Below are positions 39,287-52,333 of a stretch of 64,000 nt of DNA, one piece after another. The stretch covers positions 137,416 to 201,415 of the forward strand of contig CABVSR010000001.1 in the NCBI GenBank assembly GCA_902500995.1. The letters are read 5' to 3'. The DNA is from an uncultured Nitrospira sp. (lineage in GTDB: Bacteria; Nitrospirota; Nitrospiria; Nitrospirales; Nitrospiraceae). The translations under genes and the position numbers were made by a program. Within the stretch, counting starts at the first letter, position 1; each line of letters opens with the position of its first letter. The notes below the pieces were generated by a model that worked only from the letters and a program-made list of their open reading frames with translations, was not told the DNA's origin and did no database searches.

Positions 39287-39943
39287 CTATAACGCTGTGT
39301 CACGCCCTGAAACCGGCTCGCCGAAACGCGTGGATTGTCCGAGTTGTTCCAAGACGGAATGGACGAGCGACATGGCCTCCGGGGGCCCCATGACAAAATA
39401 AATCACCGCCCTGTCGCCGGCTGCCGTGACTGCCAACGCACGGCCGGCCATCTCTTCGCCCTCGTACGATTGCGCGATCCACTCCTCGGTCTCTACTTGA
39501 GCGCCGGCCGGGATAAACGAGAGGCCATGTAATAGCGAGAGCGGCTCACGGAGTTGATCACGAAGCGCCTCTCGCGTCACCCCGGTGAGGGGAAACATCA
39601 TCCCCAGTTGCTTGCCTTCCTCGGGCACAAGAAAAGGCATCTCGGCATCGTCGGGGCAATTGCTCTGCCAACCATCGGGAACAACAAACGACCAGTCGGT
39701 GCCGGGGATTCTCAGCCTTGTGCCGGGGCGATAGGTCATCCCGGAGACCACATCAAGAGGACGATCTTCGGCGTGACTCTCCGCAATACCCGCGGATTCA
39801 GCGGCAGCCTGCACGGCCAGGGAAACGAGTGGGGTAAGCAGCAGACAACCAAGCGCGATCTGGGCGGCCACATGCCACTGCCGCAAACGGCGCGCGGCGC
39901 CCCCTCCGACAGCGACGAGCGCAGGTCGACTAGGAGGCGGCAT
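39287..39943 (-). CDS. Exported hypothetical protein downstream of gcvP
   Basis: A 218-aa protein with an N-terminal hydrophobic segment ([21 protein letters not shown], signal peptide or anchor). The rest is globular: [40 protein letters not shown] and [17 protein letters not shown]. No family is recognised. The ATG at 39943 overlaps the gcvP stop by 14 bases, so it is translated from the gcvP message. A physical link with glycine cleavage is not implied. Confidence 0.68.
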
Positions 39944-42815
39944 CCACCGGCGGGCAGGTGCAAAAGAGGTGGCGGTCGCCATAGGCTTCATCGATCCGGC
40001 CCACACTCGGCCAAAATTTGTTCTCACGCACCCATGAAGCAGGAAACGCCGCCTCCTCGCGCGAGTAAGGCTTCGTCCATTCCGAGGCGGTGACAGCCAG
40101 TGCCGTGTGAGGAGCATTTTTCAGCACGTTTCCCGCGCGCGGCTGACGACCTTCGGCAATGGCCTGGATTTCGCCGCGGATCGCGATCAACGCGTCGCAT
40201 AACCGATCCAACTCGCCTTTCACTTCGCTCTCGGTCGGTTCGATCATCAAGGTGCCGGCCACCGGAAAGGACACGGTCGGCGCATGGAATCCATAGTCCA
40301 TCAGGCGCTTGGCCACATCCATCGCTTCGACCCCGCTGCTGTCCTTGAGCGGCCGCAGATCCAGAATGAACTCATGCGCCACGAAGCCGCGGGCGCCGCT
40401 ATACAAAACGGGGTAATATTTTTCCAACCGTCTGGCCATATAGTTGGCGTTGAGAATGGCCACTTGTGTCGCCTTGGTCAACCCTTGCCGTCCCATCAGC
40501 GCGATATAGACCCACGAAATCGTCAGAATGCTGGGACTGCCGTAGGGAGCCGCCGACACCGGCCCGATCGACTGCGGTCCGCCGAGTTTCGTGACCGGAT
40601 GTCCTGGCATGAACGGAGTCAAGTGGCGGGCGACACCGATCGGTCCCATTCCGGGCCCGCCGCCGCCGTGAGGGATGCAAAAGGTTTTATGGAGATTCAG
40701 ATGGCAGACGTCGGCGCCCAGATCAGCCGGCCGGCAGAGGCCGACTTGCGCATTCATGTTGGCGCCGTCCATGTAGACCTGCCCGCCATGGGTATGCACG
40801 ATCTGGCACATGCGGCGAATCCCTTCCTCGAACACCCCGTGAGTAGAAGGATAGGTCACCATGAGCGCCGCCAAACGACCACGATGCTGCGTCGCCTTGG
40901 CCTCAAGGTCCCCGAGATCCACATTGCCGCGCTGATCGCAGGCGACTGGAACCACCGTCATGCCGCACATCGAGGCGCTGGCCGGGTTGGTTCCATGCGC
41001 TGAGACCGGAATCAAACACACATCGCGTTGCGTTTCCCCTCGATGCCGGTGGTAGGCCCGGATCACCATCAAGCCGGCATATTCGCCCTGTGACCCGGCG
41101 TTGGGCTGCAACGAGATGGCGGCGAACCCGGTGAGTTCCGCCAGCCACGACTCAAGCTGCTGGAACAAGGCCTGGTATCCCTGCACCTGATCGTCGGGAG
41201 CGAAGGGATGCAGCCGCCCGAACTCCGGCCAGGTCACGGGCAACATTTCCGACGTGGCGTTCAGCTTCATCGTGCAGGAGCCGAGGGGAATCATCGAATG
41301 CACCAGCGAGAGGTCGCGTGATTGCAGCCGGTGGATATACCGCAACAACTCATGTTCGGCGTGATAGCGGTGAAACACCGGATGTGTCAGATACGGGCTC
41401 GTGCGCGCAAGCCCCGCCGGATACCGCCCGTCCACCGATTCGAGCAGCGCCCGCAGCTCTTCCGCGGGAATCTCCTGACCGGCGAAGAGCGCCAGCAGCT
41501 GCCGCACTTCCTCCACGTCGCTCCATTCGTCCAGCGACAAGCCCAGGCTATGATCATCGTACCGGCGGAGATTGATCTTCTGTTGGCGGGCCCGGTTGAC
41601 GATCGTGTCCGATTGCGCCGGCGAGAGGGGAACCCGCAGCGTATCGAAGACCGGCTCCAGCCCGACTGCGCAGCCGTGCCGGCGCAACCCTTCGGCCAAT
41701 GCCATCGTGAGGCCGTGAATGCGTGCCGCAATCCGCTTGAGCCCGGCAGGACCGTGATACACGGCATACATTCCCGCCATGACCGCCAGCAACACTTGCG
41801 CCGTGCAGATATTGCTGGTCGCCTTCTCCCGGCGGATATGCTGCTCTCTCGTTTGCAGGGATAGGCGATAGGCCGTACGTCCGGTGGCGTCTTTCGACAC
41901 GCCGACGATCCGGCCCGGCATCTGCCGCCGGAATTCTTCCCTCGTGGCCATGAAGGCCGCGTGCGGCCCACCAAACCCCAACGGCACGCCGAACCGCTGA
42001 CTGGATCCGACGGCGACATCCGCACCGAACTCACCCGGCGGGCGCAGCAGCGTCAACGCGAGCAGATCCGTCGCCACGACCACGTAGACCCCGGCGGCAT
42101 GCGCCCGCGTAATGAATTCGCTGTAATCTCCTACGTAGCCGTCCGTCGAAGGATATTGGAGCAACATCCCGAAGAAGTCGCCTGATGACAAATCCAACGA
42201 CTGAATGGCGCCCACCTGTAGGACGATTCCCAGCGGTTCCGCGCGAGTCTGCACCACCGCAATCGTCTGCGGGTGGCACGTTTCAGACACAAAGAACTTG
42301 GTTCGTTCGTGACCGGCGGCGCGGGAAATCGCCGCGCACATGGTCATCGCTTCGGCTGCCGCAGTGGCCTCATCGAGCAGGGAGGCGTTCGCGAGGGGCA
42401 ATCCCGTCAAATCGGCCACCATGGTCTGAAAATTGACCAGCGCTTCGAGGCGGCCTTGCGCGATCTCAGCTTGATAAGGGGTGTATTGCGTATACCAGCC
42501 GGGACCCTCGAGGATATTGCGCTGAATCACCGGCGGGGTGATGCAATCGTAGTAGCCCATACCGATCAAGGAACGCCAGACCTGGTTCTTCCCGGCGAGT
42601 CCGCGTAATTCCGCTAGAACCTCCTGCTCGCCGCGCGGGGACGGGACCGCCAGCGAAGCCTGCAGACGAATATCCGAGGGCACCGTCGATTCAATGAGCG
42701 ATTCCAGCGAGGGCAGATTCAAGGTCTCCAACATCGCCTGGATCTCGGATTCGCTCGGACCGATATGGCGGGGCGCAAACGTATCGTTCGATTCAAGAAA
42801 ATGAGGCTCTGGCAT
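39930..42815 (-). CDS. gcvP: Glycine dehydrogenase (decarboxylating), full-length P protein
   Basis: P protein of the glycine cleavage system: decarboxylates glycine using PLP and transfers the aminomethyl group to lipoyl-H protein. The 961-aa length matches the fused (single-chain) form rather than the two-subunit gcvPA/gcvPB type. The PLP lysine is K710 in [20 protein letters not shown]. The N-terminus has [20 protein letters not shown]. It is separated from gcvT by about 5 kb and is on the opposite strand. A partner gcvH is not in the window. Confidence 0.95.
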
Positions 42816-43019
42816 GGGGGTGAAATCCTGCTATAAGGTGGCGCACTCGTTGATTCGAGGCAGCCTGGGTACCCTATCACGCAGCACAGCGTTTTCCAAG
42901 CGTTCAGCGGGCATCTTCCCTCGCTTGTTTTCCAAATTTCCATAGCGTAATAGTGAGATTGACCCTCTGCCCAGCGCAGGATCGACAGCGCACGACAAGG
43001 ATCGGGACAAGAAGATCTC

Positions 43020-44675
43020 ATGATGACACATGACATTCTGGTAGTCGGGGCAGGACTCGCCGGCATGCGGGCCGCCATCGCCGTGCCCCAAGACCTCAAT
43101 GTGGCGCTGCTTTCGAAGGTGCACCCAGTCCGCAGCCATTCTGTCGCAGCCCAGGGAGGCATCAATGCGGCCATCGGGGCAGACGATTCCTGGGAAGCCC
43201 ACGCGTACGACACGGCCAAGGGGGGGCTCTATCTGGGGGATCAGGACGCCATCGAAGCCATGTGCAAAGAAGCGCCGCAGGACATTTTAGAGCTGGAGCG
43301 CATGGGCGTGATTTTCAGCCGTACCCCGGAAGGACGTATCGCGCAGCGACCGTTCGGAGGAGCCGGATATCCCCGGACCTGTTACGCAGCCGACCGTACC
43401 GGCCATGCTTTGTTGCATGCCATGTATGAACAACTGATGAAACGCCGTTGCAAGGTGTATGAGGAATGGTACGTCACCGCTTTGCTGGTGGAGCAGGGGC
43501 GCTGCTGCGGGGTGGTCGCCTGGGACCTGATCCAGGGCGGATTGCACACGTTACGCGCAAAAGCCGTCATTCTGGCGACCGGCGGGAGCGGGCGAGTCTT
43601 TTCCACCAGCACCAATGCCGTGATTAACACCGGAGACGGCATGGCCTTGGCCTATCGCGCAGGGGTCGCGCTCGAGGACATGGAATTCGTCCAATTTCAT
43701 CCGACCACGTTGAAAGACACCGGCATTCTGATTACCGAAGGCGCGCGCGGGGAGGGCGGATATCTCCTCAACACGCTCGGCGAGCGGTTCATGAAACGTT
43801 ATGCGCCGGAACAAATGGAACTGGCGACGCGCTCCACGGTCTCTCTCGCCATCGGGCAGGAGATTCAAGAAGGGCGAGGAGTCGACGGCTGCGTCCTGCT
43901 TGACCTGCGGCATCTCGGCCGCGCTAAAATTCTGGAACGGCTGCCGCAAATTCGAGAGCTGGCAATGGAGTTCGCGGGTCTCGATCCGATCGAAACACCG
44001 ATTCCCATTCGCCCTGGTGCCCACTACCAGATGGGCGGCGTCCGAACCAATGCCTGGGGAGAGACCGACCTGCCCGGACTTTTCGCCGCCGGCGAATGCG
44101 CCTGCGTCAGCGTGCACGGGGCCAACCGCCTGGGAGGCAACTCCTTGCTGGAAACCATTGTCTTTGGACGCCGGACCGGCATCAAGGCCGCGGAATCGAT
44201 CCGCGATGCTGAGCTGCCGCCGGTCTCCGGTGCCATTCTTGAATGCGAAGAACAGCGCATCAGCACGCTTTTGAGCCACCCCGGGCCCGAACGGGCATGG
44301 CAGATACGGGACGACCTCGGCAAGACCATGAGCCTGAACCTCGGCATCTTCCGCACGAAGTCCTCCATCCAGGAAGCGCTCAATGCGCTTCAGGCCTTGA
44401 AGCGTCGCGCGCAGCACCTGTGCGTACAGGACAAGGGACGCATCTTCAATACCGACCTGATTCATGCGCTGGAGCTGCAGTGCCTGCTCGAGATCGCCGA
44501 AACGATCGTCGTGGGCGCCTTGGGACGAGAAGAAAGCCGCGGGGCTCACTACCGGGGCGATTTCCCGGCGCGAAACGACAAGGACTGGCTTCGCCATTCA
44601 CTCAGCCACCGCCGCCCGGAAGGCCCTCAACTGACCTACGCCCCTGTGACCATTACGCGATTCCCTCCTGCCTGA
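43020..44675 (+). CDS. Succinate dehydrogenase/fumarate reductase flavoprotein subunit
   Basis: A 551-aa FAD-dependent oxidoreductase of the SdhA/FrdA/NadB group. It has DILVVGAGLAGMRAAIAV (FAD Rossmann), VRSHSVAAQGGINAAIG (site of covalent FAD attachment in SdhA/FrdA), FHPTTLKDTGILITEGARGE (active site) and RGAHYRGDFPARNDKDWLRH at the C-terminus, which fits SdhA/FrdA better than NadB. The iron-sulfur and membrane subunits are not adjacent. It starts with two consecutive ATG codons. In reductive TCA organisms such a protein may act in fumarate reduction. Confidence 0.9.
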   Translation: MMTHDILVVGAGLAGMRAAIAVPQDLNVALLSKVHPVRSHSVAAQGGINAAIGADDSWEAHAYDTAKGGLYLGDQDAIEAMCKEAPQDILELERMGVIFSRTPEGRIAQRPFGGAGYPRTCYAADRTGHALLHAMYEQLMKRRCKVYEEWYVTALLVEQGRCCGVVAWDLIQGGLHTLRAKAVILATGGSGRVFSTSTNAVINTGDGMALAYRAGVALEDMEFVQFHPTTLKDTGILITEGARGEGGYLLNTLGERFMKRYAPEQMELATRSTVSLAIGQEIQEGRGVDGCVLLDLRHLGRAKILERLPQIRELAMEFAGLDPIETPIPIRPGAHYQMGGVRTNAWGETDLPGLFAAGECACVSVHGANRLGGNSLLETIVFGRRTGIKAAESIRDAELPPVSGAILECEEQRISTLLSHPGPERAWQIRDDLGKTMSLNLGIFRTKSSIQEALNALQALKRRAQHLCVQDKGRIFNTDLIHALELQCLLEIAETIVVGALGREESRGAHYRGDFPARNDKDWLRHSLSHRRPEGPQLTYAPVTITRFPPA

Positions 44676-44760
44676 TGCTCCGATTGCCGAACCCAATCTC
44701 ATCCGACGCTCCGCAACTCCCCTTCGCATGACCACTGCCCTTTCCGCTCCGTGCGGCTGG

Positions 44761-44788
44761 TTGCGCTCCTCCCGTTTTGCGCTATGCT
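44761..44788 (+). promoter_or_regulatory. Candidate promoter of the ankyrin/DUF898/M48 cluster
   Basis: TTGCGC (44761-44766) and TATGCT (44783-44788) with a 16-base spacer lie about 72 bases before the ATG at 44860. The -10 box is a moderate match. Confidence 0.45.
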
Positions 44789-44859
44789 TTTCAATAATCA
44801 CCGATCACCCACTGACGGGACCGTCCACAACGCGCCCGGGCGAAGGGTCGTAAGGCAGC

Positions 44860-46170
44860 ATGACTACCGTTCACCCCGGCGCAGCCGCACCTGCATTCCC
44901 CGTACTGACTCCCTCGGACCTTGCCCGGACCGTCATCTGCCCCTTTTGCCGGGCGATCACCTCCTGCGCCCCGGAAGCCGGTGTCCCGTTGCATCAAATA
45001 GCCTGCCCTTCGTGCCGGGCCAACCTCCTGCTCCTCAACCCCGCAGCGCGGCCGACCGATGAAGACAGGAACAACCGCGCATCGGAGGGCGATCTACCGA
45101 TCGATCTCTCGCGACGGCTCACGGGACTTGCTGTAGCTGTCCTAGCCTGTGTGTTGAACTATGTGTTGTTAGCGGGAATGGCCTCCTGGATGCTCGGACA
45201 AATAAAAACCACCCACGATCCTTACGAGATCGATGCCTTGGTCCTTTCCCCGCTGATTTTGAGGGCCAATGGCTGGACGCCGCTCCATTTCGCAGCGGCG
45301 CGTGGCGACCTGGCCTCGACCGCGGCGCTCCTGGCTGAGAGACAGGCGGTGGATCAACGCAACGGCCACGGGCGGACGGCACTTTCTGAAGCGGCCAGGC
45401 GAGGGCACACCGATGTGGTCAGGGTGTTGCTGCAGCATGGGGCCAATCCCAACGCCAAGGGAAAGCAAGGCTTGACCCCGCTGCTGGTCGCGGCTGAACA
45501 GGGCCATGCCGACACCATTGAGGCGCTCCTTTCAAACGGCGCGGAACTCAGAGCCGCCTGTACCTGCGGTGACTCTGCGCTTCACCGAGCAGTCCGGCGA
45601 GGACAGCTCACTGCCGCGCAGACCCTGCTCGAAGCAGGCATTCCGGTCAACCAGAAGAGTCACGGCGAGACCGCGCTGGAGATCGCGCTCCACGAGGAGG
45701 ATCACGAACTGGCTGCGCTGTTGCGCGCGCATGGAGGCAGGGAATTTTCGGAAGCGAAGTCACGCCGCGCCCAAGGCATCGCATTTCAAAAACAAGGCCG
45801 GATCGATCAGGCTCTCTTGGCTTATGCCGAGGCGCTGAACCTGGACCCGGATGATGACGAAGCCTACTACGGCCGCGGAACCGCATTACTCGACAAACAG
45901 GAACCCGATGAAGCGCTCATCGCCTTTCACGCCACCATCCGCCTGAATCCGACCTCCATCAATGCCTACAGTGCGGCGGCGTCCGTGTACAATGCGCGGC
46001 GGCAGTGGGACCAGGCCCTGGCCCTTTGGGATCAGCTTCTCGCGCAACAACCACAAAACGGGCGAGCCCACTTTGAACGCGCCGTCGTGAAGCGAGGGAA
46101 AGGCGACAGCGCAGGATTCCTGCAGGGGTTGCAGCAAGCCTGCACCCTGGGCCATCGGGCTGCCTGCTGA
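44860..46170 (+). CDS. Zinc-ribbon, membrane, ankyrin- and TPR-repeat protein
   Basis: A 436-aa multi-domain protein. Residues 25-55 have VICPFCRAI and IACPSCRANL, a CxxC...CxxC zinc ribbon. One membrane helix follows (LAVAVLACVLNYVLLAGM, about residues 90-108). Ankyrin repeats span about 135-290 (NGWTPLHFAAARGDLASTAA, GRTALSEAARRGHTDVVRVL, GLTPLLVAAEQGHADTIEAL and two more). TPR-like repeats occupy about 300-420 (ALLAYAEALNLDPDDDEAYY). The protein is thus a membrane-tethered scaffold. The next gene starts 3 bases later and also has a zinc ribbon plus membrane region; a shared complex is likely. Confidence 0.85.
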   Translation: MTTVHPGAAAPAFPVLTPSDLARTVICPFCRAITSCAPEAGVPLHQIACPSCRANLLLLNPAARPTDEDRNNRASEGDLPIDLSRRLTGLAVAVLACVLNYVLLAGMASWMLGQIKTTHDPYEIDALVLSPLILRANGWTPLHFAAARGDLASTAALLAERQAVDQRNGHGRTALSEAARRGHTDVVRVLLQHGANPNAKGKQGLTPLLVAAEQGHADTIEALLSNGAELRAACTCGDSALHRAVRRGQLTAAQTLLEAGIPVNQKSHGETALEIALHEEDHELAALLRAHGGREFSEAKSRRAQGIAFQKQGRIDQALLAYAEALNLDPDDDEAYYGRGTALLDKQEPDEALIAFHATIRLNPTSINAYSAAASVYNARRQWDQALALWDQLLAQQPQNGRAHFERAVVKRGKGDSAGFLQGLQQACTLGHRAAC

Positions 46171-46173
46171 AGC

Positions 46174-47445
46174 ATGACCAACGCGGCTCTGCATGACGAC
46201 ACCAGCGCCGCGCGCGTCACCTGCCACCGTTGCCGCAGCCACTACCGGGTCCGCGCCGTAGCGCAGCTGACGCCGGCGTCGCGAAGCATCTGCCCGACCT
46301 GCTGCGCTCGATTTGCGGTAGTCGAGCCGATCTCGTCAGTCTTCGCCGACACGGCGCCGACCGCACAAGACCTCCATCCTGCAGCTGCTGATCAAGCGTC
46401 CCCATCCAGCGCACCAGCCTTCACGTCTTCACCCCTGCGCGGATCTTTTCATGGAATGGGCGGCACTCTCCTCGGCATGCATGTCGTGAACGCCTGCCTG
46501 ACCCTGGTGACGTTGGGCGGGTATCACTTTTGGGGCAAGGCGAAAATCCGTCGATACCTGTTCGGCCATACCTCGTTCGCAGGCGACCGGTTCGCGTATC
46601 ACGGGACAGGGAAGGAACTGTATCAGGGATTTCTGAAGGCCATGCTGGTCTTCGGTATCCCCTATTTTTTGCTGAGCGCAGCGCACACCTTTCTGGATCT
46701 TCCCGGGTGGATCGATGTGCCGGCGCAAGGGCTGGCCGGCCTGGTGTTGTTTCTCTATGTGCCGGTCGCCATCGTCAATGCGCGCCGGTATCGATGTACA
46801 CGCACCTCCTGGCGAGGCATCCGCTTTTCATTTCGCGGGCGCACCGCCGATTTCCTGAAACTCTATTGCCGGGGATGGTTCTTCACGGTCCTGACCCTGG
46901 GCACCTACTACCCCTATTTCCACACCCAACGCCAGGCGTTTCTGCATTCCCACACCTTTTTTGGCAATCAGCGCTTCCGGTTCACCGGCCACGGCTCCGG
47001 GGTGATGATCCCTTTTGCCGTCACCCTGTTTGCCACCTATGCTGTCCTGGGCCTGTGCGGGTTCGCCCTGGCCCTGCAATTGACGAATGCGGGACTGGCG
47101 CTGCTGCTGATTCCCATTGTGCTCGGACCGCTGTGGATCTGGCTGCGGGGACAACAGCAGCGCTATGTCTGGAATCACACCTCGTTCGGAGCAGCCCGGT
47201 TCTCCTCCGATATCACCTGGCAACGGCTATTCACCTTGTACCTCGGCAACCTCGGACTTCTCCTCGTCACCTTGGGATGGGCCTGGCCCTGGGTCACGGT
47301 GCGCAACGCCCGCTTCTTCTCCGCGACCTTGTCATTACATGGACCGGCGGATCTCGATCGCGTGTTGCAAGATACCACCGAAGCCTCGGTCACCGGCGAA
47401 GGGTTATCTAACCTCCTCGACACCGGCTTCGATATGGATGCGTGA
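46174..47445 (+). CDS. DUF898 (YjgN-like) membrane protein with N-terminal zinc ribbon
   Basis: A 423-aa protein. Residues 15-50 have TCHRCRSHYRV and SICPTCCARF, a zinc ribbon. A low-complexity linker precedes two DUF898 halves: FWGKAKIRRYLFGHTSFAGD (about 117-136) and WNHTSFGAARFSSDITWQRL (about 330-349), with about six to eight membrane helices in total. YjgN/DUF898 function is unknown, though genes of this family are often found next to M48 proteases, as here. It starts 3 bases after the ankyrin gene and ends 2 bases before the M48 gene. Confidence 0.88.
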   Translation: MTNAALHDDTSAARVTCHRCRSHYRVRAVAQLTPASRSICPTCCARFAVVEPISSVFADTAPTAQDLHPAAADQASPSSAPAFTSSPLRGSFHGMGGTLLGMHVVNACLTLVTLGGYHFWGKAKIRRYLFGHTSFAGDRFAYHGTGKELYQGFLKAMLVFGIPYFLLSAAHTFLDLPGWIDVPAQGLAGLVLFLYVPVAIVNARRYRCTRTSWRGIRFSFRGRTADFLKLYCRGWFFTVLTLGTYYPYFHTQRQAFLHSHTFFGNQRFRFTGHGSGVMIPFAVTLFATYAVLGLCGFALALQLTNAGLALLLIPIVLGPLWIWLRGQQQRYVWNHTSFGAARFSSDITWQRLFTLYLGNLGLLLVTLGWAWPWVTVRNARFFSATLSLHGPADLDRVLQDTTEASVTGEGLSNLLDTGFDMDA

Positions 47446-47447
47446 TC

Positions 47448-48590
47448 ATGGCCACCGGCCGAACCGCTCACTATCTCGACGGCCGCACGGCCACGCGGCA
47501 TCGTGTTAGCCTCACCATAAGTCCTGCCGCATTGCAGATCGCCATGCCCGACGGGAGCGGCAAAGAGTGGCCCTATAACCGGATCCGGCAAACCCAAGGC
47601 ACGTACCGCGGCGAGCCAGTGCGTTTGGAATTCGGCCCTGAACCGGCAGAAGTTCTGGTTATCGAAGATCTGGCATTATTGTCCGACATCCATGCGGCAG
47701 CCCCCGCGCTTGCACAACACTTCCACAATCCTGCAAGGCGCAAGGCCCGGTTCGTATGGACAGTCTGCACGGGCTTGGGGGTCGTGCTCATACTCACCGG
47801 CTTGTACCGCTGGGGGATTCCTGGTCTCGCCGCCGCAGCGACGCCATACGTGCCGGCGATGTGGGAAGAATCGCTGGGCCGGCGGATCGTGGACCACCTC
47901 GCTCCGGAAACGCAGCAATGCCGGGATCCGGAGCGGCTTCACAAAATCAACCAGATCGTGCAAACATTGGCGGCGACCCAACCCACGGCTCCCTACCGGA
48001 TTACAGTCTCCGTGGTAGACAATCCCGCCATGAATGCCTTTGCCGCTCCGGGCGGGCACGTGGTGATTTTGCGCGGCCTATTGGAACAGACCACCGGTCC
48101 GGAACAACTTGCCGGGGTCCTGGCGCACGAACTGCAACATGTCTATCAACGGCATACCACTCGAGCCATTCTCGAACAGACCGCCGGCACCCTGCTGCTG
48201 ACTGCTGTATCGGGAGATCTGTCCGGTGGACTGGCCTGGGGATTGGAAGGGGCACGGACGATGGGGGCATTGCACTACAGCCGCTTGCACGAAGAAGAAG
48301 CCGATCTCGGAGGCCTCCGCATGATGCAGGCTGCGCAGCTCGATCCCGCCGCCATGATCGCCTTCTACGAAACGCTGCAGCAGGCGGAGCAGGACCATGC
48401 CGGAGCACCTGACTTTCTTTCCACTCACCCCGACATGGGCCGGCGGTTGGCCACCCTGACCTCGCTGGCCGGCCCCGCGCCGGCTGACGCGCGCCGCTTG
48501 CTTCCCGGCGAAGACTGGTCGGACATTCGCTCCCTCTGTCGCCTGCAGGCCGCCAGACGTTCCGGCCCGGACTCAGCAGATCTGCCCTGA
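47448..48590 (+). CDS. M48-family zinc metalloprotease, membrane-anchored
   Basis: A 380-aa protease. An N-terminal soluble part (about 1-95) precedes one membrane helix (WTVCTGLGVVLILTGLY, about 102-118). The M48 domain shows VDNPAMNAFAAPGGHVVILRG, the zinc site HELQH (227-231) and the third ligand in EEEADLGGLRMM (about 284-295). Relatives such as YcaL/BepA are periplasmic quality-control proteases. The start is ATG 47448, three bases after the DUF898 stop; a GTG two codons earlier overlaps it (GTGA) and is also possible. The adjacent DUF898 protein is a common neighbour of this protease type. Confidence 0.9.
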   Translation: MATGRTAHYLDGRTATRHRVSLTISPAALQIAMPDGSGKEWPYNRIRQTQGTYRGEPVRLEFGPEPAEVLVIEDLALLSDIHAAAPALAQHFHNPARRKARFVWTVCTGLGVVLILTGLYRWGIPGLAAAATPYVPAMWEESLGRRIVDHLAPETQQCRDPERLHKINQIVQTLAATQPTAPYRITVSVVDNPAMNAFAAPGGHVVILRGLLEQTTGPEQLAGVLAHELQHVYQRHTTRAILEQTAGTLLLTAVSGDLSGGLAWGLEGARTMGALHYSRLHEEEADLGGLRMMQAAQLDPAAMIAFYETLQQAEQDHAGAPDFLSTHPDMGRRLATLTSLAGPAPADARRLLPGEDWSDIRSLCRLQAARRSGPDSADLP

Positions 48591-48659
48591 CACCACGTTT
48601 GACCTCATCACAGCCCCGCCGCCTCTGCTATAATCCACCACCTGTGGGCATGATGACCT

Positions 48660-49331
48660 ATGCGTGTGCTTGTCGTTGAAGATGAAACCAAGGTGGGCTC
48701 CTTCATCAAGCGGGCCCTTGAGGAGGAGAGTTACGCCGTCGACCTCTGTGAAGACGGCGCGCAGGGCCTCGACTTAGGCCTGACCGGCAGCTACGACCTC
48801 ATCATGATCGACCTCATGCTGCCGGGCTTACCCGGCATGGAAGTGCTGACCCGCCTCCGCAAAGAAAAAATTCAGACGCCGGTCTTAATTCTGACGGCGC
48901 AGTCGAAAGTCGATCAACGCGTCAAGGGGCTGGATGCGGGGGCGGATGACTACCTCACCAAACCGTTCGCGATCGACGAATTGCTCGCCCGCGTCCGGGC
49001 CCTCTTGCGACGGGGCACGGCCGAATCGTCCGGCACACTCCAGGTCGATGATCTCATCCTCAACCCCGCCACGCGAGAAGTCACCCGGGGAGGTCAACGG
49101 ATCGATCTCACCGTCAAAGAATATGCCCTGCTGGAATATTTCATGCGGCATGCCGGCCGGGTGTTGACCCGCCCGATGATTTCCGACCATGTCTGGAATC
49201 AAGATTTCGACACGTTCACCAATGTCATCGACGTCTACGTGAATTATTTGCGGAACAAGATCGATCGCGGACGGGCCCGAAAATTGATTCATACGATACG
49301 AGGGAGTGGGTATATGCTCAAGGTCGACTGA
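48660..49331 (+). CDS. OmpR-family response regulator
   Basis: A 223-aa two-component regulator. The receiver domain has VVEDE near the start, phosphoacceptor D51 in LIMIDLMLPGLPGMEV, and KPFAIDELLARVRAL. The C-terminal winged-helix domain has LDRATREV-like LNPATREVTRGGQRIDLTVK and YVNYLRNKIDRGRARK. It overlaps the sensor kinase by 1 base (TGATG). Together with the kinase it probably controls degP and other envelope genes. A perfect TATAAT at 48629-48634 lies 25 bases before the ATG but has no well-spaced -35 box. Confidence 0.94.
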   Translation: MRVLVVEDETKVGSFIKRALEEESYAVDLCEDGAQGLDLGLTGSYDLIMIDLMLPGLPGMEVLTRLRKEKIQTPVLILTAQSKVDQRVKGLDAGADDYLTKPFAIDELLARVRALLRRGTAESSGTLQVDDLILNPATREVTRGGQRIDLTVKEYALLEYFMRHAGRVLTRPMISDHVWNQDFDTFTNVIDVYVNYLRNKIDRGRARKLIHTIRGSGYMLKVD

Positions 49332-50734
49332 TGCCGCTGCGAGTCCGGCTCACGCTCTGGTACGGAACGGCGCTGGCCCTGATCCTGTTGACGTTCTCCG
49401 TGGTGCTCTACACCATCACGGCCCGCGGCCTCCGCGACCAGGTCGATGAGTCATTGCAGGAAACCGCCTCGGCCGCCGTACGTTCGCTGGAGACCCGCGG
49501 CTTCCTTCCCCTCATCGATGAAGATGCCCTGTTGAGCCAATTCCCGGAACTCACCCGCATCGACAAATTCTTTCAGATCTTCAGCCCCACCGGCACCATC
49601 ACCATCCGCTCCCCGAATATCCGGCAACACGACGTACCCTTGAGCCGGCCGGCCCTGGAAGCCGCCTTCACCGGCAGCACGGTCTTCGAATCGGCGAGAT
49701 ACCCCAACGAACCGCCGCTGCGCCTGGTATCGGTTCCCATTATCTATCGCGGCTCGCTGCTATATATCGTGCAGGTCGGCACGACTATGGAAGGCGTCGA
49801 AGAAACCCTCCGGCGCTTCCTCCTCGTACTGCTCGTCATGGCGCCGATTGCGCTCGTCGTGTCGCTGGTCGGAGGATGGTTTCTCGCCGGGCGCGCCCTG
49901 CGCCCGGTCGATTCCATTACCGTGGCAGCGCAGCGGATCGCCGCAGGCGATTTGACGCAACGGCTGCATTCCGAACGTTCGACCGATGAAATCGGGCGCC
50001 TGACCGATACGTTCAACAATATGATCGCGCGGCTGGAAACGTCCTTCGCGCAAATCCGGCAATTCAGCAGCGATGCCTCCCACGAACTGCGCACGCCGCT
50101 GACGGTCATGAAGGGCGAGAGTGAGTTGGTCCTGCGCCGCCCCCGGCCCGTCGAGGACTACATCGCCGTGCTTGAAAGTAATCTGGAGGAAATCGACCGC
50201 ATGTCCCGCATCGTCGAGGAATTGCTCTTCCTCTCGCGGGCGGACATGGGGCAGGTGAAAACAGAATGCGAGCCGGTCCGGCTGGAGGCCTTAGTAGAGG
50301 ACATTCAACGCCAGGCCTGCCTCCTGGGCCAGGAACGGGAAGTGGATGTCAGCATGGGCACGATTCAACCGGCGACCGTGCGGGGAGACGAACTTCGCCT
50401 GCGGGAGCTCATCCTCAACATCGTCGACAACGCGGTGAAGTATTCGCATCCCAAGGGCAAGGTCGAAATCGACTTGCGGGTGGAGGGCGCCACCGCGCGC
50501 CTCGCCGTGCGCGATTACGGGATCGGCATTCCGCAGGACGCGCACAAACAGATTTTTGACCGCTTTTTCCGCACCGACGATGCCCGGGCCCATACCAAAA
50601 AAGGGACCGGCCTCGGCCTGGCCATCTGCGCCTGGATTGCGGAAGCCCACCATGGGCACATCGAGGTCCACAGCGAGGTCGGCAAAGGATCGACCTTCAC
50701 GCTTGTCCTGCCATTGGCTGCGCCGGCAGCTTAA
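49331..50734 (+). CDS. Sensor histidine kinase
   Basis: A 467-aa membrane kinase, CpxA/QseC-like in layout. First membrane helix: ALALILLTFSVVLYTIT (about 15-31). A periplasmic sensor of about 125 residues follows. The second helix (LLVLLVMAPIALVVSLVGG, about 162-180) leads to a HAMP region (ALRPVDSITVAAQRIAAGDL). The dimerisation motif is SSDASHELRTPLTVMKGESE with phosphoacceptor His near 253. ATPase motifs are NIVDNAVKYSHPKG (N box), DYGIGIPQ and KKGTGLGLAICAW. It starts 1 base into the regulator gene. The stimulus is unknown. Confidence 0.94.
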   Translation: MPLRVRLTLWYGTALALILLTFSVVLYTITARGLRDQVDESLQETASAAVRSLETRGFLPLIDEDALLSQFPELTRIDKFFQIFSPTGTITIRSPNIRQHDVPLSRPALEAAFTGSTVFESARYPNEPPLRLVSVPIIYRGSLLYIVQVGTTMEGVEETLRRFLLVLLVMAPIALVVSLVGGWFLAGRALRPVDSITVAAQRIAAGDLTQRLHSERSTDEIGRLTDTFNNMIARLETSFAQIRQFSSDASHELRTPLTVMKGESELVLRRPRPVEDYIAVLESNLEEIDRMSRIVEELLFLSRADMGQVKTECEPVRLEALVEDIQRQACLLGQEREVDVSMGTIQPATVRGDELRLRELILNIVDNAVKYSHPKGKVEIDLRVEGATARLAVRDYGIGIPQDAHKQIFDRFFRTDDARAHTKKGTGLGLAICAWIAEAHHGHIEVHSEVGKGSTFTLVLPLAAPAA

Positions 50735-50755
50735 CGAGTTCTAATTCCTCGTTAA
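50731..50755 (+). promoter_or_regulatory. Palindrome upstream of the DegP-type gene
   Basis: TTAACGAG (50731-50738) and CTCGTTAA (50748-50755) form a perfect 8-base inverted repeat with a 9-base centre. It overlaps the kinase stop codon and is about 100 bases before degP. It may be an operator for the adjacent response regulator or a small terminator-like stem. Confidence 0.45.
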
Positions 50756-50854
50756 TAGTGTTCTCATCCAGGACTGTTACCTTCCAAAAGACTGTTGCGT
50801 GCAGGAACGATTTCTCCCGCGCGCAGAGGCCACCGTCTTTTAGGAGGAACCCCT

Positions 50855-52333
50855 ATGCAACGACCCACACCGTCACTCAGTGTATTAGCCGGTATTGCCG
50901 CCGTCAGCGCGGGGTTGATCTGGAGCTATACTCCGCTGTTACCGTCTCACGCCTCGAATCCTGCGCCGGCTGCTGACGCACGTCCGATGGCGCCGGCCAG
51001 CGCCTTACCCGCCGCCGGCTTCGCAGATGTGGCCAAGACGGTCACGCCGGCCGTCGTCAACATCACCACCAGCGGCGCGGAGGAAGTGTCCGACCACGCC
51101 CGTCCGCGCGGCAAAATGGAAGACTTTTTCGGTTCTCCGTTCGGGCCGCGCCGGTTCGGACCGCCGATGGAGCCTCGGGAACGCCGGGGCGGCGGCCAGG
51201 GGTCGGGCGTGATCGTCACTCAGGATGGGTATGTGCTGACCAACAACCACGTGGTCGCAGGCGCGAAAACGGTGACTGTCACGCTGCCCGACAAACAGGA
51301 GTTCAAGGGGAGAATCGTCGGCACTGATCCGAAGAGCGACCTTGCCGTCGTGAAGATCGACGGTTCTCAGCTCCCGACGATTCCCTGGGGCGACTCCGGC
51401 CGCCTGCAGGTCGGCGAATATGTGCTGGCGATCGGAAATCCGTTCGGCCTGAATTCCACCGTAACCCTGGGCATCGTCAGCGCGCTGGGGCGCGGCCACA
51501 TGGGGATCACGCAGTATGAAGATTTCATCCAAACCGATGCCGCCATCAACCCGGGCAACAGCGGCGGCGCGCTCGTCAACACCAAAGGGGAGTTGGTCGG
51601 CATCAACACGGCCATCTTTTCTCAAACCGGCGGGTATCAAGGCGTCGGCTTCGCCGTCTCGACCGGCATGAGCAAGCCGATCTATGAAAGCCTGGTGAAG
51701 ACCGGCAAGGTGGTGCGCGGCTACCTAGGCATCGGCATTCAGGACCTGAACCATGAGCTCGCGAAATCCTTCGGCGCGAAGGGGAGCAAGGGCGCGGTCG
51801 TGACCGATGTGAAGGAGGAGGGCCCGGCGGACAAGGCCGGGATCAAGCAGGGCGATGTCATCCTCTCCTTTGAAGGCATCCCGGTCGAGGATGCCGTCAC
51901 CCTGCAGCGGGCCGTCACCCGTAGCGCGGTCGGCAGCAAAGCCACGGTGAAAGTGCTGCGAGACGGCCAGGAAAAGGACGTGGCCGTCACCCTGGCCGAA
52001 CTGCCGGACAACCAGCAGGTCGCCAAAGCTGAAGCCGACCTGTCGGACCAGCCGCTGGCAGGCCTCGCCGTGCAGGACCTTGATCGGGAAACCGCGCAGG
52101 AACTCGGTCTCAAGGGCAAGCTTCAAGGCGTTGTGGTCACCGCCGTTGATCCGGACAGCGAGGCGGAACGGGCGGGATTGATGCCGGGTGACGTCATCCG
52201 GGAAATCAACCGCAAGCCCGTGACTTCGATGAAGGAGTTCGACCGGGCCGCATCGAATCTCAAGAAAGGGCAAACCGTTCTGGTCTTGATCAACCGGCGC
52301 GGAGCCTCCCTCTACCTGAGCGCAAAAATCTGA
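50855..52333 (+). CDS. Do/DegP-type periplasmic serine protease
   Basis: A 492-aa HtrA family protein. The N-terminus has a membrane/signal segment (LSVLAGIAAVSAGLIWS). The protease triad is H132 (NNHVV), D162 (KSDLAVVKID) and S236 (NPGNSGGALVN). Two PDZ domains follow (RGYLGIGIQDLN, about 285-375, and LAGLAVQDLDRETAQELGL, about 405-490). It degrades or refolds damaged envelope proteins. The start has an ideal AGGAGG site. It sits directly after the two-component genes, an arrangement like Cpx-controlled degP elsewhere. A strong terminator follows. Confidence 0.95.
   Translation: MQRPTPSLSVLAGIAAVSAGLIWSYTPLLPSHASNPAPAADARPMAPASALPAAGFADVAKTVTPAVVNITTSGAEEVSDHARPRGKMEDFFGSPFGPRRFGPPMEPRERRGGGQGSGVIVTQDGYVLTNNHVVAGAKTVTVTLPDKQEFKGRIVGTDPKSDLAVVKIDGSQLPTIPWGDSGRLQVGEYVLAIGNPFGLNSTVTLGIVSALGRGHMGITQYEDFIQTDAAINPGNSGGALVNTKGELVGINTAIFSQTGGYQGVGFAVSTGMSKPIYESLVKTGKVVRGYLGIGIQDLNHELAKSFGAKGSKGAVVTDVKEEGPADKAGIKQGDVILSFEGIPVEDAVTLQRAVTRSAVGSKATVKVLRDGQEKDVAVTLAELPDNQQVAKAEADLSDQPLAGLAVQDLDRETAQELGLKGKLQGVVVTAVDPDSEAERAGLMPGDVIREINRKPVTSMKEFDRAASNLKKGQTVLVLINRRGASLYLSAKI

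Follow-up and report, generated by a model that had tools for sequence, protein, structure and literature searches.

Membrane-anchored M48 metalloproteases of the OMA1/HtpX type serve in inner-membrane quality control, and no DUF898 partner is known for either OMA1 or HtpX. DUF898 (YjgN) is a widespread family of membrane proteins without an assigned function, present even in Escherichia coli. M48 proteases, DUF898 proteins and zinc-ribbon adaptors are each known kinds; the locus described here brings all three together in an uncultured Nitrospira sp. (contig CABVSR010000001.1, positions 137,416 to 201,415; this whole stretch of 64,000 nucleotides is termed the window). Its three genes, which like all their features given below lie on the forward strand, encode a 436-residue protein with a zinc ribbon, a transmembrane (TM) helix, ankyrin and TPR repeats, proposed to act as a bitopic adaptor (gene 1, 44860–46170); a 423-residue zinc-ribbon protein of the DUF898 family (gene 2, 46174–47445); and a DUF7092-TM-M48 metalloprotease, identified with Pfam, of 382 residues when read from GTG (gene 3, 47442–48590). 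Models of HtpX score gene 3 at only 22–34 bits.

Among the closest described systems is BepA (YfgC) of E. coli, whose TPR domain forms a cup around the M48 domain and is required for the protein to function, and whose “HP” plug is H246-P247, with R252 six residues on from the histidine (PMC7950410). Gene 3 resembles BepA in its M48 fold, its HExxH motif, a glutamate as third ligand and an HP plug with arginine at the same spacing, and in both cases a TPR domain would work with the protease. However, BepA consists of one periplasmic chain, its TPR domain being fused to the C-terminal side of M48, whereas gene 3 carries a PH-like domain and a TM helix, the TPR repeats reside in gene 1 and a DUF898 protein is added. 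The NCBIfam BepA model (NF052400) scores gene 3 at 98.6 bits, against a cut-off of 570, over the M48 domain only, and gene 3 is therefore not a BepA equivalog. YjgN of E. coli shares the DUF898 domain (165 bits) but has neither a zinc-ribbon match nor an M48 neighbour. A third comparison is offered by Caulobacter ZitP, whose cytosolic zinc ribbon is followed by a TM helix and a periplasmic domain; through the latter it recruits CpaM, a bitopic enzyme of the periplasm (PMC5182063). The cytosolic CxxC-x19-CxxC ribbon, TM helix and periplasmic domain of ZitP have predicted counterparts here, but ZitP carries DUF3426 and has no DUF898 partner, CpaM is deacetylase-like and not a protease, and at the present locus two proteins bear ribbons.

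The literature search found no paper treating DUF898 and M48 together; in the excerpts retrieved, DUF898 occurs as a domain label in a passage and yjgN as a hit in screens or binding experiments, in neither case with a mechanism attached. The constant DUF898-DUF7092-M48 pairing reported below was not found in the literature searched, although annotation databases would show it, and the swappable adaptor of the Nitrospiraceae appears undescribed. We consider the chances about even that the three genes specify a single protease complex of the inner membrane that serves envelope quality control.

Pairing of DUF898 with an M48 protease across phyla

The DUF898-M48 pair forms the core of the locus, and its distribution extends well beyond the window. 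DUF898 is present in 28 of 29 Nitrospira genomes; in the Nitrospirota sample (n = 198) it exceeds the cut-off in 35 genomes and DUF7092 does so in 34, all of them within the DUF898 set, with the DUF7092 gene directly downstream and the order constant. The 35th DUF898 genome (G150) likewise has an M48 gene directly downstream, so the pair is adjacent in 35/35. In a second phylum, entered via a ‘Deltaproteobacteria’ genome, DUF898 occurs in 6 of 148 genomes and an M48 gene follows directly in five; the sixth (G403; L136, 3466–4890) encodes a divergent DUF898-TPR fusion with no adjoining M48. The evidence from Pseudomonadota comprises seven individual records, adjacency being taken from annotation in Azoarcus, Sinorhizobium, Magnetococcus, Roseinatronobacter and Qipengyuania, and from tblastn in Acinetobacter and Methylobacterium. 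The pairing spans several phyla; the counts include related species and do not represent independent events. Co-occurrence across genomes, on which the original prediction had staked a joint function, is borne out by these figures, and the joint function itself is strongly supported, as within Nitrospirota the gene order is conserved and the genes do not stand alone.

The near-obligate link to DUF7092-M48 gives DUF898 a testable assignment, namely as a subunit of an inner-membrane protease. The reverse arrangement, in which the principal role falls to DUF898 (as a transporter, or as a protein that handles lipids or shapes membranes) and the M48 enzyme is its dedicated maturation or turnover factor, would accommodate both the persistence of DUF898 without M48 in E. 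coli and G403 and the fact that DUF7092 above cut-off never occurs without DUF898 in the Nitrospirota sample. Retention of the pair across several phyla speaks against it, as does the lack of any indication of transport, PDB relatives of DUF898 being found neither by sequence nor by fold, and we regard it as distinctly unlikely.

Two weak signals were kept out of the counts: a DUF7092 match in G178, which is under the cut-off and carries three stops, and DUF898 matches in genus g42, likewise under the cut-off. As a separate observation, locus L134 (819–2729) encodes a 636-residue TPR protein with a DUF4034 match, 3' of a DUF898-M48 pair and on the same strand, which is a second case of a TPR protein beside the pair.

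Architecture of the protease and its membrane partner

Gene 3 matches Peptidase_M48 (PF01435; 8.4e-30, 104.4 bits vs 20.3) and DUF7092 (2.3e-8), the latter domain being absent from the original description. The M48 domain (47940–48464, Pfam) groups structurally with BepA (6ait; Z 21.7, 209 residues, 3.0 A) and with 3c37 (Foldseek, VIA-align). Alignments of the window and related-locus sequences, with 19–21 rows for M48 and DUF898, place the HExxH zinc motif (H229 E230 L Q H233) at 48126–48140 and the HP plug, H329-P330 with R335, at 48426–48446. H229, E230, H233 and the third ligand E284 are invariant in 19 M48 sequences, as are H329, P330 and R335; the active site is intact, and activity is predicted from these conserved residues. 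The chain ends about 40 residues past the M48 domain.

The DUF7092 region (47463–47681; Pfam and structure model) is predicted to be cytosolic and to form a PH-like barrel: its model has seven strands and a C-terminal helix, and the N-terminal 92 residues of the predicted model match PH/PTB/FERM-F3 domains with a best Z of 8.4, a middling value, over 87 residues at 2.9 A. It is followed by a TM helix (residues 104–122; 47751–47807) of predicted N-in/C-out orientation. Since lysine and arginine residues number 59 before and 19 after this helix (19 sequences), the M48 domain is predicted to be periplasmic.

Gene 2 matches DUF898 (PF05987) at 2.8e-88 and 296.7 bits against a cut-off of 28, over model positions 2–335 of 336. 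About ten membrane segments are predicted, and in the structure model the DUF898 region (46435–47412) consists of five units, each a TM hairpin with a beta-hairpin that would lie in the cytosol. Basic residues are concentrated in the hairpin loops (466/2872) as compared with the tips (7/1081; 21 sequences), and the positive-inside rule therefore predicts cytosolic beta-hairpins and an N-in/C-in protein. With single TM helices predicted in genes 1 and 3, the expectation of membrane anchors in all three proteins agrees with these topologies. The suggestion that DUF898 might be a channel or a sensor, on the other hand, gained no support: PDB searches found no sequence relative of DUF898 and no fold match at E<=0.001 or at VIA Z>=8. 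A novel fold should not be read into this result, because the model has a mean predicted local distance difference test score (pLDDT) of 62 and a poor first unit.

The N terminus of gene 2 carries a predicted cytosolic ribbon of the MJ0042/Zn_ribbon_4 type (C17-C20-C40-C43; 46222–46302), whose cysteines are invariant across 21 sequences. Although 18 of 21 DUF898 orthologues match Zn_ribbon_4 (PF13717) at E<=0.1 and eight match TIGR02098, gene 2 of the window matches neither model, and zinc binding is predicted from its cysteines. The DUF898 N terminus also varies elsewhere, with a GYF_2 domain in L071, an extension of no assigned domain in L078 and a very long extension (876 residues in total) in L081.

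Gene 1 as a candidate adaptor and the proposed mechanism

Gene 1 opens with a predicted cytosolic ribbon (C27-x2-C30-x18-C49-x2-C52; 44938–45015) whose four cysteines are invariant in 23 Ank-TPR orthologues; together with those of gene 2 it fits a CxxC-x18-19-CxxC spacing, and the ribbons foreseen at the start of both genes are confirmed at the level of cysteine conservation. A TM helix (residues 90–108; 45127–45183; predicted N-in/C-out) leads into ankyrin repeats (residues 135–296; 45262–45747; Ank_2, 2.2e-37, 127.9 bits) and TPR repeats (residues 303–408; 45766–46083; TPR, 4e-14; TPR_11, 52.4 bits). The repeats are predicted to be periplasmic, because lysine and arginine residues number 44 before and 20 after the helix (23 orthologues). 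C-terminal of the TPR repeats, C428 and C436 are likewise invariant among these orthologues.

Homologues of the ribbon and TM portion were detected in 35 of 147 genomes of the family. In 34 of them the gene lies inside the cassette; the 35th (G009; L127, 5990–7901) holds a remnant that is frameshifted and cut at the contig end by an IS3-like element with two transposase frames, and no intact gene 1 was seen outside the cassette among the 147 genomes. G009 is also the sole genome without DUF898 among the 29 from Nitrospira, and its assembly is possibly incomplete. A second zinc-ribbon match in G004 was rejected as a gene 1 copy, since it lies in the C-terminal third of a long protein (L128).

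The outer part of gene 1 is of the Ank-TPR type in genera g1, g103 and g105 and Coa1-like in g2 and g107, while in g4 it is short. Against a 22-bit cut-off for Coa1 (PF08695), two g2 genomes score 29.9 and 27.2 bits and g107 scores 17.4 bits, under the cut-off; g107 also gives a weak SnoaL-type match, and the g101 protein resembles the Coa1 type as judged by sequence only. Coa1 faces the mitochondrial intermembrane space; the invariant C428/C436 pair and the Coa1-like replacement agree with a periplasmic location of the outer part. On this comparison, gene 1 is a putative addition within the family Nitrospiraceae which keeps its ribbon and TM helix and changes its outer part between genera. 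The original prediction had cast the repeat protein as a scaffold organising the other two; it does belong to the cassette, but as a family-level addition with a replaceable outer domain it is better called an adaptor.

In the mechanism that we propose, gene 3 would be the catalyst, with its PH-like domain in the cytosol, a single TM helix and the M48 domain in the periplasm. DUF898 would be its obligate integral-membrane partner, its five repeated hairpins contributing about ten TM helices and its conserved beta-hairpins and ribbon lying in the cytosol; it may keep the protease in place or gate it, and on the cytosolic side it could contact the PH-like domain. As a lineage-specific bitopic adaptor, gene 1 would dock on the DUF898/M48 core through its cytosolic ribbon and TM helix, while its periplasmic part, whether Ank-TPR or, in sister genera, Coa1-like, may select substrates or present them close to the protease. 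Precedents for parts acting in this manner are the TPR domain of BepA, which works with its M48 domain (PMC7950410), and the recruitment of CpaM by ZitP (PMC5182063). The complex would probably clear faulty envelope proteins; because the active site is intact and the M48 domain is predicted to be periplasmic, gene 3 fits envelope quality control. Extended beyond this family, DUF898 might be the mark of a widespread two-component class of membrane M48 proteases, with a PH-TM-M48 partner and swappable zinc-ribbon bitopic adaptors setting substrate choice, a generalisation offered tentatively and held to be possible rather than probable. The Nitrospiraceae cassette would in any case represent a domain swap made by nature, the outer domain being the one part of the adaptor that has changed, and provides a way to study substrate choice by a membrane protease.

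Inheritance and genomic setting of the cassette

The close three-gene cluster predicted originally proved exact in its coordinates, with 3 nucleotides between genes 1 and 2 and 2 nucleotides between the gene 2 stop and the conserved gene 3 start, an ATG at 47448 (residue M3, invariant among orthologues). In 20 Nitrospira genomes taken with wide flanks these gaps measure 2–3 and 2–5 nucleotides, respectively, and the gene order is identical in 20/20, so the arrangement is not due to chance. Synteny within the genus is by itself weak evidence, because the whole gcvP-degP neighbourhood is conserved there, as would be expected if the three genes were neighbours by history only and had separate tasks. 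Wider comparison argues otherwise. Flanked by sdhA on one side and by a response regulator/histidine kinase/DegP block on the other, the main site is occupied in the genus Nitrospira, g103, g105 and g101, the triple having the window order in g103 and g105 and, with a Coa1-type gene 1, in g101; at the same site in g107 the order is reshuffled to M48, gene 1, DUF898, and two g2 genomes carry the triple in the same order, with a Coa1-type gene 1, at a different locus. Among the 20 sister genomes examined, 18 have the response regulator immediately after sdhA, with nothing intervening; of the other two, L150 has no response-regulator match and L152 carries the cassette. Whole-block absence, reshuffling and relocation, together with pairing in other phyla, largely refute a purely historical association for genes 2 and 3, and for the three genes as a set such an association is highly improbable. 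As judged from these comparisons, the cassette appears to have been inherited vertically and lost as a unit.

The main rival to quality control is that the DUF898-M48 unit performs specific processing of one dedicated substrate, as a regulatory switch, with gene 1 sensing the periplasm and signalling via its ribbon. Obligate pairing with one dedicated partner would suit such a role, as would the predicted cytosolic ribbons on both gene 1 and DUF898, given that the choice of binding partner in ZitP is governed by its ribbon (PMC5182063); moreover, at each of two separate loci the cassette adjoins a two-component system. However, a candidate substrate is lacking, the two-component genes next to the main site are retained in genomes that lack the cassette, and the fast divergence of the cassette (0.34 vs 0.08–0.15 for the flanks, i.e., about 2.3–4 times faster) does not suggest one strictly conserved substrate, which together make a switch rather unlikely.

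Several points weigh against the quality-control complex as well. Its role is drawn by analogy from other M48 proteases, and the topology signal for gene 1 is moderate. DUF898 can exist without M48, as yjgN stands alone in enterobacteria and the G403 fusion lacks a protease neighbour. Distances of DUF898 and M48 are correlated (rho 0.95, with an equal mean divergence of 0.34), but both also track the flanking genes (rho 0.84–0.95), and the correlation therefore mostly reflects shared descent. The DegP and two-component neighbours are weak evidence for quality control, because they are in place without the cassette; for the same reason, their linkage was rejected as proof of an envelope-stress function.

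Within the window the neighbourhood (39930–52333) comprises gcvP (reverse strand), an sdhA/frdA-like flavoprotein gene, the cassette, an OmpR-type response regulator, a histidine kinase and a DegP-type protease, and the gcvP-to-DegP block is conserved across the family Nitrospiraceae with or without the cassette. In g4 (G154) the kinase pair lies 3' of the cassette, and the relocated g2 cassettes (L083, L126) end beside a convergent histidine kinase/response regulator pair that is only distantly similar to the main-site pair. A TATAAT-type promoter-like site stands at 48607–48634, 3' of gene 3 and upstream of the response regulator; chance alone would give a single site of this type in the region. 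The same genome (G000) carries four further M48 genes (contigs C17, C28, C15 and C6), and the product of gene 3 is therefore accompanied in the cell by several other M48 proteases.

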